A DNA stretch of 33,687 nucleotides from Candidatus Firestoneibacteriota bacterium (GTDB lineage: Bacteria; Oederibacteriota; D2-FULL-39-29; CAIOVX01), in the NCBI GenBank assembly GCA_903894145.1, contig CAITPB010000073.1, positions 1-33,687 of the forward strand, written 5' to 3'. Every line of letters starts with the position of its first letter. Position 1 is the first letter of the stretch. Of this stretch, positions 472 to 18,582 are shown one piece after another. The translations under genes and the position numbers were made by a program. Under the pieces are notes generated by a model that made no database searches, was not told the DNA's origin, and worked only from the letters and a program-made list of their open reading frames with translations.

Positions 472-519
472 GCCTTTAAGCCTTTAAGCCTCCAACCTTC
501 CAACCATCTAACCCTCTAT
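472..519. repeat. Degenerate 8-bp tandem array, 6 units (plus strand consensus ~CCYTYYAA)
   Basis: Units read directly: gcctttaa gcctttaa gcctccaa ccttccaa ccatctaa ccctctat. Confidence 0.75.
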
Positions 520-531
520 CCACGGCTTTGT

Positions 532-1762: not shown

Positions 1763-1875
1763 AAGTTTGTAATGTTCATAAGGTTTGTAAGGTTTATAAG
1801 GTAAATACGAACCCTGCTTAACAGACTTTATATACCTTATAAACCTTATGAACTTTGCTTTTACCTTACAAACTT
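1763..1875. repeat. Two inversely oriented degenerate 9-bp tandem arrays (GTTYRTAAG) forming a long imperfect inverted repeat
   Basis: Left arm GTTTGTAAT GTTCATAAG GTTTGTAAG GTTTATAAG GTAAATACG (1765-1809); right arm CTTATAAAC CTTATGAAC (1836-1853) and CTTACAAAC (1865-1873) is the reverse complement type. Confidence 0.8.
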
Positions 1876-3671: not shown

Positions 3672-3790
3672 AAAAACCCTCTTCTATCCGGACTTTAACC
3701 GTCGGCACCGGAGTTTCACCGGTTCAGTCCGTCACAGTGACGGAGTAGCGGGCTTTACCGCCGGTAGGGAATCGCACCCTGCCCTGAAGG
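3672..3790 (-). ncRNA. FMN riboswitch (RFN element) aptamer upstream of ribD
   Basis: Minus strand CCTTCAGGGCAGGGTGCGATTCCCTACCGGCGGTAAAGCCCGC...GGACTGAACCGGTGAAACTCCGGTGCCGACGGTTAAAGTCCGGATAGAAGAGGG matches the conserved RFN core. Confidence 0.97.
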
Positions 3791-3797
3791 TATATAT

Positions 3798-12712: not shown

Positions 12713-13687
12713 CTATTTCTCTTTAGTTGTATCTGCCGCAGGCTCTGCAGCCTTCTTCTTTTTGTCTTCTACAGGCTTTTTTAGTACGGTCCTTAAATAC
12801 ATCTTGTCAGCGTCTATGTATTGAAGAGGACTCGCCTCAAACATGGCTTTGTGCGTGTTACCGCAGAAAAAATAGCTTCTCCCTTCATACCTCGCATCCG
12901 GAAAAGTATTTCTCCCGCGCCCTCTTATCTTGTCCTGCTTGCCGCAAACCTGGCAGGTTACTATTTCCTTTGAATATTTCCACTGGTTCTTTTCGAACTC
13001 TCTTTTCCTTGCCTCGTCAATGAAATAATATCTTACCCCGTGATACTCGGAAGAAGGCGTCTTTTCCGTAACCTTAATGTTTGTTCCCGTAACCGCGCAA
13101 ACCGTTTCGGAAAGTATCGTTGAATCCGCCTCAGCCGGAACAGGAACCTTTTTTACTGCTTCAGGTTTTACCGCCGGAACAGCTGCAGGAGCAACCTGGG
13201 CAGGAACTGCCGGAGCCGTTTGCGCCGGAGCTGCCGGAACTACCTGGGCCGGAGCCATAGGAGCGGGCTTCGCCGGAGTTGCAGGAATAGCCAGCACCGG
13301 AGTTGCAGGAACAGTTTGCGCCGGAACTGCAGGAGCCACCTGCGCCGGAGTTGCCGGAGCCGTCGGCGCCGAAGCTGCTGGAGCCGCTGGAGCCGTCTGC
13401 GCCGGAGCTATAGGAACAGACTGCGCCGGAGTTGCAGGAATAGCCAGCACCGGAGTTGCAGGAACAGTTTGCGCCGGAACTGCAGGAACCGCCTGCGCCG
13501 GAGCTGCCGGAGCCGTCGGCGCCGTCGGCGCCGGAGCTGCTGGAACAGTTACCTCTACTTTTTTTTCTTGAACAACTGATTTAGGGGCTGATTTTTTTTC
13601 AGGCGCCGGCTCGTCTTCATCAAAAGCCTGGCCAAATACTCCGGCAGAAAGGAAAAGTACACCTAGAATTGTCACTATTAACCTCAT
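12713..13687 (-). CDS. Secreted Ala/Pro-rich protein with two C-terminal YHS/TRASH-like domains (ORF trimmed to ATG 13687)
   Basis: Signal peptide MRLIVTILGVLFLSAGVFGQA with SD GGAGG upstream; APAQTVPATPVLAIPATPAQ repeats; CAVTG...YHGVRYYFIDEARKREFEKN and CQVCG...YEGRSYFFCGNTHKAMFEASP. Confidence 0.75.
   Translation of the reverse strand: MRLIVTILGVLFLSAGVFGQAFDEDEPAPEKKSAPKSVVQEKKVEVTVPAAPAPTAPTAPAAPAQAVPAVPAQTVPATPVLAIPATPAQSVPIAPAQTAPAAPAASAPTAPATPAQVAPAVPAQTVPATPVLAIPATPAKPAPMAPAQVVPAAPAQTAPAVPAQVAPAAVPAVKPEAVKKVPVPAEADSTILSETVCAVTGTNIKVTEKTPSSEYHGVRYYFIDEARKREFEKNQWKYSKEIVTCQVCGKQDKIRGRGRNTFPDARYEGRSYFFCGNTHKAMFEASPLQYIDADKMYLRTVLKKPVEDKKKKAAEPAADTTKEK
13271..13487. repeat. 64-bp perfect direct repeat (13271-13334 and 13424-13487) inside the Ala/Pro linker
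   Basis: cgccggagttgcaggaatagccagcaccggagttgcaggaacagtttgcgccggaactgcagga occurs twice, offset 153 bp (51 codons). Confidence 0.85.
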
Positions 13688-13975: not shown

Positions 13976-14605
13976 ATGCAAACAAAATGGATTGACATAA
14001 CTTTACCTGTAAAGCCGGGAATGCTCAGATGGCCAGGCGACGCTTTAGTCCGCTTTATAAAGATGAAAGAAATGAAAAAAGGCGCACAGAATAACCTCAG
14101 CGCTATCTCTCTCGGGTCGCACACCGGCACACATATGGATGCTCCCCTTCACTTCTTTGCCGGCGGAAAGAGCCTGGATAAAATGCCTTTAGAAGCTGTT
14201 ATAGGCCCTGCCCGAGTGCTTGAGATAAAAGACAAAGAATGCGTGAAATCAGATGAGCTTAGGCGCTTTAATATTCTCAAAGGGGAGCGCATACTCATAA
14301 AGACCGCGAATTCAGGATTTAAGAAAGCACGCAGTTTTCGGGAAAATTTCACATACATATCCCTTGAAGCCGCAAAATACATTCTGTCGCGGGGCGTCAG
14401 GACGCTAGGCATTGATTATCTTTCCGTGGGCGGGTTCAAAAAAGACGGAACTGAAGTACACAGGGCCCTTCTTGGAGCGGGAATCTGGCTGATTGAAGGA
14501 CTGGACCTGAGCGGTGTCAAACCGGGCAAGTATGAGCTGTTCTGCCTGCCGTTGAAAACCGTGGGTCTTGAAGGCGCACCCGCAAGGGTAGTAATAAGAA
14601 AATAA
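13976..14605 (+). CDS. Cyclase / kynurenine formamidase-like metal-dependent hydrolase (start trimmed to ATG 13976)
   Basis: WIDITLPVKPGMLRWPGD, SLGSHTGTHMDAPLHFFAGGKSLDKMPLEAVIGPARVLEI, TLGIDYLSVGG. Confidence 0.9.
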   Translation: MQTKWIDITLPVKPGMLRWPGDALVRFIKMKEMKKGAQNNLSAISLGSHTGTHMDAPLHFFAGGKSLDKMPLEAVIGPARVLEIKDKECVKSDELRRFNILKGERILIKTANSGFKKARSFRENFTYISLEAAKYILSRGVRTLGIDYLSVGGFKKDGTEVHRALLGAGIWLIEGLDLSGVKPGKYELFCLPLKTVGLEGAPARVVIRK

Positions 14606-14634: not shown

Positions 14635-14790
14635 GTTTCGGTTGGTAAGGTTCATAAAGTAATCATTTTTAAAACTATTATATTCTTACCCGACACCTCA
14701 TTTGTGCCTAAACAGGGCATTACCTCATATTTAATCTGCCTTCTTTTCTTTTGTGTCTTGCCTTTTGTAAATAAATTCACAGAATCCCGC

Positions 14791-18537: not shown

Positions 18538-18582
18538 GTTACAAACCTTATAAACTTTATAAACCTTATGAACTTTATTAAC
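18538..18582. repeat. Degenerate 9-bp tandem array, 5 units, overlapping the ispG stop codon
   Basis: Plus strand units GTTACAAAC CTTATAAAC TTTATAAAC CTTATGAAC TTTATTAAC; same family as 1763-1875. Confidence 0.82.

Follow-up and report, generated by a model that had tools for sequence, protein, structure and literature searches.

What is the repeat that fills the gap between ribE and ribBA in this riboflavin operon, and what might it do there? Repeats between bacterial genes are usually either palindromes that transposases mobilise or minisatellites prone to slippage. The nonamer repeat described here combines a fixed unit count and a fixed orientation to stop codons with conserved sites, in which some letters are free and the sequence is replaced. 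The window (the whole stretch of DNA analysed, 33,687 nucleotides) is contig C73 of the incomplete genome G000 (1.88 Mb in 283 contigs, 87% complete). The genus was sampled with four genomes, some of them incomplete or possibly mixed bins. The sequence read came from three genomes, with about 1.36 Mb from G002 (98% complete), 0.44 Mb from G000 and about 0.22 Mb from G003. Genes were predicted with a home-made hexamer model.

The nonamer element of the rib operon

The operon begins with an FMN riboswitch before ribD (3672-3795, minus strand, Rfam). The riboflavin synthase gene ribE (Lum_binding, Pfam PF00677) is an open reading frame at 1876-2526 of the minus strand with its stop codon at 1876-1878, and the downstream gene ribBA (PF00926 and PF00925) lies at 532-1743 of the same strand. 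The nearest named relatives of the RibBA protein come from Candidatus Firestonebacteria metagenome-assembled genomes.

A preliminary description placed a degenerate array of 9-bp units in the 132-bp gap between the two genes, and the array is indeed there: a two-unit pattern matched 12 times in the window (0.20 expected in shuffles) and TRF detected the array independently. The arm adjoining the ribBA start is regular. It consists of four nonamers, GTTTGTAAT GTTCATAAG GTTTGTAAG GTTTATAAG, at 1765-1800 on the plus strand, antisense to the rib operon, with a full match of the strict four-unit pattern at G000:C73:1765-1799. It is closed by the terminal motif GTAAA (1801-1805, plus strand); GTAA follows most four-unit arms in G000 and G002. 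This arm had been counted as five units, and the supposed fifth, GTAAATACG, is the terminal motif seen on most arms genome-wide.

The ribE-side arm is irregular. Its first unit GTTTGTAAG (1865-1873, minus strand) is split from three further units, GTTCATAAG GTTTATAAG GTATATAAA (1827-1853, minus strand), by the 11-bp linker GTAAAAGCAAA (1854-1864, minus strand); comparable GTAAA...AAAAGCAAAA linkers are found between arms in G002. Between both arms lies a centre without repeats (1806-1826), the loop of the predicted folds. The gap is therefore not made wholly of 9-mers, as had been thought, because the linker and the centre interrupt them. The array was also said to begin at the ribE stop codon; it is near this codon, and its first unit begins 2 nt after it.

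A second arm of the window, at 18538-18582 on the minus strand (TRF and pattern matches), has five units in sense that overlap the stop codon of ispG (PF04551), and has no inverted partner. A two-unit remnant (14641-14658, plus strand; pattern matches and gene model) lies downstream of a plus-strand gene ending at 14605. The Rfam search of the window returned the FMN riboswitch and one tRNA only, with no RNA family matching the arms. Two other kinds of repeat were seen in the window: the octamer GGTTNGAN, of a distinct short-repeat family, directly past the ribBA stop (491-521, minus strand), and repeats of 24 to 153 bp within a predicted protein that weakly matches the YHS domain (13181-13546).

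Distribution in the order

The element in the ribE-ribBA gap belongs to a family of intergenic elements that is specific to the order. With two mismatches allowed, GTTYRTAAGGTTYRTAAG matched 332 times in the genome of the window and once as reversed control, and the numbers were similar in three congeners. The search for further genome-wide copies, proposed with the first description, thus gave hundreds, far above the reversed control. The strict four-unit pattern had 28 to 179 matches in eight of nine genomes of the order and two in the ninth (G006); none was found in 36 other genomes of the phylum, and controls gave zero. Arms of the second family of the order are alike, with four units, GTAA and inverted partners.

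Libraries of phage and plasmid DNA contained no match to the arm, and literature searches found no description of these nonamer arrays. An origin from phage or plasmid was rejected on the lack of DNA matches; six viral contigs carried simple runs of identical 9-mers or related arrays, not the arm. Many G000 contigs break off no more than a few hundred bases from an arm (e.g. C3, C29, C43, C45, C52), so the arms act as assembly breakpoints.

Structure of the arm

The element is an arm of four degenerate GTTNNTAAS nonamers closed by GTAA, located in sense right past a stop codon, either alone or facing an inverted arm. After the four nonamers the terminal motif reads GTAA(A/G/T). Arms in G002 had two units in 26 cases, three in 37, four in 104, five in 12 and six in 4, and the excess of four over three is significant (p 1.5e-8). 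Four-unit arms made up 104/183 in G002, 43/77 in G000 and 29/55 in G003. At the ninth base of the unit C prevails in G002 and G in G000; NN is mostly TA, TG, CA, CG or CT. Arms end as (AAAA)GTT... and ...GTAA(A/G), the preceding AAAA being usual in G000 and less strict in G002. Head-to-tail repetition of arms also occurs, as in contig C9 of G003, where the period is 53 bp.

The NN columns of the four units are mutually independent, and adjacent units resemble each other no more than by chance. NN strings do not form haplotypes (17 identical pairs; 12.5 ± 3.8 expected), so the frame has been kept while NN was free. A single arm is not a palindrome and folds weakly (-3.3 and -4.6 kcal/mol; shuffles -2.4 and -2.7). 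Protein-binding arrays of the operator or iteron kind are recognised by a fixed pitch, a fixed number of sites, a conserved core and free spacer bases, and the arms have all of these.

Could the arms be neutral minisatellites, AT-rich 9-mers expanded by slippage and tolerated in gaps? At the ribE-ribBA gap the unit number does change, with two units missing at a related locus (L053, see below), and simple arrays of identical 9-mers occur in the unrelated viral contigs. However, the sharp peak of arm length at four, where slippage would give a decaying distribution, is not that of an ordinary minisatellite; the constant GTAA end, the fixed orientation, the conserved positions and the chance-level likeness of adjacent units also disagree with it. 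Octamer arrays of G002, by contrast, vary widely in length. We regard a minisatellite as very improbable. Plain selfish tandem expansion, one of the functions first considered, is likewise unlikely, given an arm length that stays close to four units.

Position and orientation at gene ends

In G002, 168 of 179 arrays (~95%) are intergenic, in a genome sample where intergenic DNA is 7.3% of the sequence. Where a gene flanks the array on both sides, the genes are co-directional in 113 cases, convergent in 40 and divergent in 3; divergent gaps are avoided. Of the arms that lie 25 nt or less from a stop codon, 95 run outwards, in the reading direction of the gene, and 8 run back towards it (p 5e-20). 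The commonest distances from the stop to the first unit are -8, where the TAA of the unit itself serves as the stop, and +2, as at ribE. The bias to gene 3' ends that the preliminary description proposed to look for is borne out by the intergenic share and by this close tie to stop codons. Arms were found near about 9-10% of genes only, with no known common function. A use as in-frame back-up stop codons was rejected, because no single frame prevails.

Inverted neighbouring arms stand head-to-head in 56 cases and tail-to-tail in none. Among co-directional gaps, 26 of the 65 with a sense arm also have an antisense arm, as do 6 of the 318 that lack a sense arm (odds ratio 35, p 3e-17).

Another candidate was an intrinsic transcription terminator, possibly a bidirectional one of the form A4 - stem - T4. 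In G000 most sense arms do follow AAAA, and most antisense arms are followed by TTT(T) on the mRNA strand. But the stem is AU-rich, and at least five T in the seven bases past the stem were found in only 5/14 cases in G000 and 3/33 in G002. Several loci have a GC-rich, terminator-shaped hairpin of their own beyond or between the arms. Predicted terminators are equally frequent behind genes with arms (0.33) and without (0.39), and since they show no association with the arms, this candidate was rejected; we give it hardly any probability.

Pairing between inverted arms

The preliminary description proposed that the two arms could fold into an AU-rich hairpin in the rib mRNA. The gap does fold far better than shuffles (z -6.3 in sense and -8.8 in antisense), whereas the idea of a selected mRNA structure found no support. 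A selected hairpin would be an AU-rich stem, intercistronic or 3', that shields the upstream message or serves as an RNase cleavage site, as with enterobacterial REPs. It would be matched with the strong predicted fold, with the co-occurrence of sense and antisense arms in co-directional gaps, with the exclusive head-to-head arrangement, and with the site within an operon controlled by the FMN riboswitch.

The strong fold, however, is what any two arms would give. Native partner arms bind no better than swapped ones (-30.2 vs -31.7 kcal/mol); pairing differs neither between sense and antisense strands (p 0.8) nor by any G-U bias to the transcribed strand. Complementary bases are rarer at facing NN positions than in shuffles (0.326 vs 0.423 ± 0.025), as would be expected if perfect palindromes were unstable. 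Judged by NN complementarity and the arm-swap test, compensatory base changes between paired arms are absent. In co-directional gaps lone sense arms outnumber paired ones and are equally intact, with 0.035 mismatches per unit in single and 0.050 in paired sense arms. The independence of NN, together with pairing no better than that of swapped arms, means that there is no sign of co-evolved RNA pairing, and a co-varying hairpin was rejected on arm swapping and the G-U strand test. The pairing of arms is real as co-occurrence and is not tuned as a base-paired structure. We therefore think a selected mRNA hairpin unlikely.

Conservation between genomes

Between G000 and G002, 80 syntenic gaps of at least 50 bp were compared. 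Arrays were present in 21 of them in G000, and 15 of these 21 also had an array in G002, against 0 of the 59 gaps without a G000 array (p 8e-12). At shared sites NN and the ninth base are mostly different. It means that site occupancy is conserved between two species, while the sequence there is usually replaced. The syntenic gaps present a mosaic of gain and loss, in which no clean empty site was seen.

Locus L053 has the same element in its ribE-ribBA gap, minus two units; its gap is 99% identical with that of the window, whereas ribE is 83% and ribBA 81% identical. Locus L052 has a different element at this position, with a hairpin module inserted, and at three loci of the other family ribE and ribBA have no gap between them. 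A comparison of arms at matching genes in the two families covered only a handful of genes.

Some gaps show 97-100% identity between species that share about 83% in coding DNA, while others are fully replaced; this was seen in the L053 gap and in gaps of G000 contigs C107, C78, C59, C111 and C180 compared with G002. The pattern suggests short-tract exchange of gaps, or mixed bins.

Associated repeats and transposases

The sequence read contained 41 copies of REP1, a two-hairpin module some 75 bp long, GCCGCACTTCGTGCGTCTTGTTCTG...ATGCCGGAC..GTCCGGCATAGCAGAATAA. In 25 copies REP1 directly adjoins ...TAA of an arm on one side and GTT on the other, and the arm is back in its 9-bp phase once the module is taken out, which fits target-specific insertion of a non-autonomous element into arms. 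Genes for Y1 (IS200/IS605-type) transposases occur in eight of nine genomes of the order and are absent from the nearly armless G006. No REP1 was found alongside the Y1 genes examined, and no arms were found at their loci except one in G001/G003, behind an integrase-like gene. Y1 transposase as the cause of the arms was rejected, because Y1_Tnp is common across the phylum in genomes without arms. In the sister family, the Y1 genes at L191, L194 and L196 have long palindromes on both sides (GTGTGACAGTCAC...GTGACTGTCACAC; AAAAGGGACAGTCCC...), unrelated to the arms.

These data bear on the main rival reading, a mosaic repeat like REP or BIME. Here the arms would be non-autonomous DNA, mobilised by a transposase or spread by recombination, piling up downstream of genes as the least harmful place, with any role in mRNA secondary. 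The high copy number, the intergenic position, the inverted pairs and the mosaics with other repeats speak for it, as do the REP1 insertions with TAA unit boundaries on both sides and the coincidence of Y1 genes with arms across the order; preferred heterodimers have also been reported for REPs (PMC3733652). On the other hand, the arms are not copies of a master sequence, since NN is free and unlinked. They are not palindromes, they keep a 95:8 orientation relative to genes and their occupied sites are conserved between species, while the Y1 genes lack REP1 and, bar the one locus, lack arms. A mosaic repeat is possible, and we place it on the doubtful side. If true, it would be a new kind of mobile repeat that doubles as landing pad for a second hairpin element.

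Other repeat families share the locations of the arms. Octamer arrays of the GGTTNGAN type near gene ends in G002 lie past the stop in sense in 17 of 18 cases, and unrelated heptamer and octamer families have the places and, where countable, the orientation of the arms. This suggests that the process is not specific to nonamers. The G002 gaps hold the further degenerate heptamer families AATYAGY, AAATTCK, AAGCACC and GACRGAR (loci L131-L190 and L219-L238, e.g. C60:1-194, C60:19135-19380 and C91:130320-130500). Inverted pairs of the AAGCACC family are head-to-head in 17 cases and tail-to-tail in none, and two syntenic gaps have a heptamer-type array in G002 where G000 has nonamers. A dispersed repeat of 117 bp, 97-100% identical across species, was found at many G002 sites and in G000 (C143:3061-3178, C45:803-919, C226:7811-7931), with at least one copy inside a nonamer arm.

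Possible function of the arms

The explanation that we tentatively prefer as the best, at somewhat below even chances, is a four-site recognition array at gene 3' ends for a putative multivalent nucleic-acid-binding protein. Such a protein would read the repeated TAASGTT core and treat NN as spacer. Its target might be the 3' untranslated part of nascent RNA, or DNA where genes end; marking, protecting or processing the ends of transcripts are examples of what it might do. An inverted partner arm would then add a second site, with the hairpin as a by-product.

Taken together, the fixed number and pitch, the constant end, the free NN, the orientation, the conserved sites and the intact single arms make a recognition array the best reading; a mobile repeat, a minisatellite, a terminator and a co-evolved stem each fit them less well. 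The ninth base, G in G000 and C in G002, is as expected if a trans-acting factor had changed its preference. Against the recognition array, antisense arms beside downstream starts are not explained by a simple 3'-end mark; arms lie near only a small share of genes, and heptamer and octamer families occupy the same places.

A bolder form, which we consider rather unlikely, is an undescribed, order-wide 3'-end code of exactly four TAASGTT sites past stop codons. A putative multivalent protein dedicated to this code would bind it as RNA or DNA; the protein's preference at the ninth base would have shifted between species, and the genome-wide set of sites would have followed. If the four-site binding array is true, it points to a new 3'-end factor in an uncultivated order. 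The rival models differ in testable predictions.

Comparison with known repeat systems

The arms resemble REP, BIME and REPIN sequences in their many extragenic copies, in forming inverted doublets that can fold as hairpins, and in mixing with other repeats as mosaics; a REPIN consists of two REPs in inverted orientation (PMC3116915). REP dimers favour non-identical partners, a preference left unexplained in the survey (PMC3733652), and facing NN bases of the arms are also under-matched. However, a REP unit is an imperfect palindrome of 20-40 bp, while the arm is four short direct nonamers with free NN. REPs carry a GTAG or CGTC tag at one end (PMC3733652); the arm has neither and is oriented relative to the gene. 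REPs flank their RAYT (Y1_Tnp) gene, while arms were near one Y1 locus only (G001/G003). REPIN singlets are degenerate remnants of doublets, whereas single arms are intact.

Foldback transposons have inverted arms of short tandem repeats around an unrelated middle sequence. For the nonamer arms no transposase, target duplication or copied arms were found, and the middle is often the host's own gap, terminator-like hairpins included. The NIME/dRS3 repeats of Neisseria also form mosaics between genes, bordered by short inverted repeats whose inner bases vary; dRS3 consists of one 20-bp inverted repeat, unlike four direct nonamers. In the survey of REPs, dRS3 is entered as a CGTC-1 REP (PMC3733652).

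STAR elements of Staphylococcus are, like the arms, interspersed intergenic direct repeats at positions stable over time (PMC3532100). Their motif number varies, from 1 to 6 at the gapR locus, and spacers of 40-44 bp separate the motifs (PMC3532100), whereas the arms are four contiguous 9-mers with fixed pitch, tied to stop codons.
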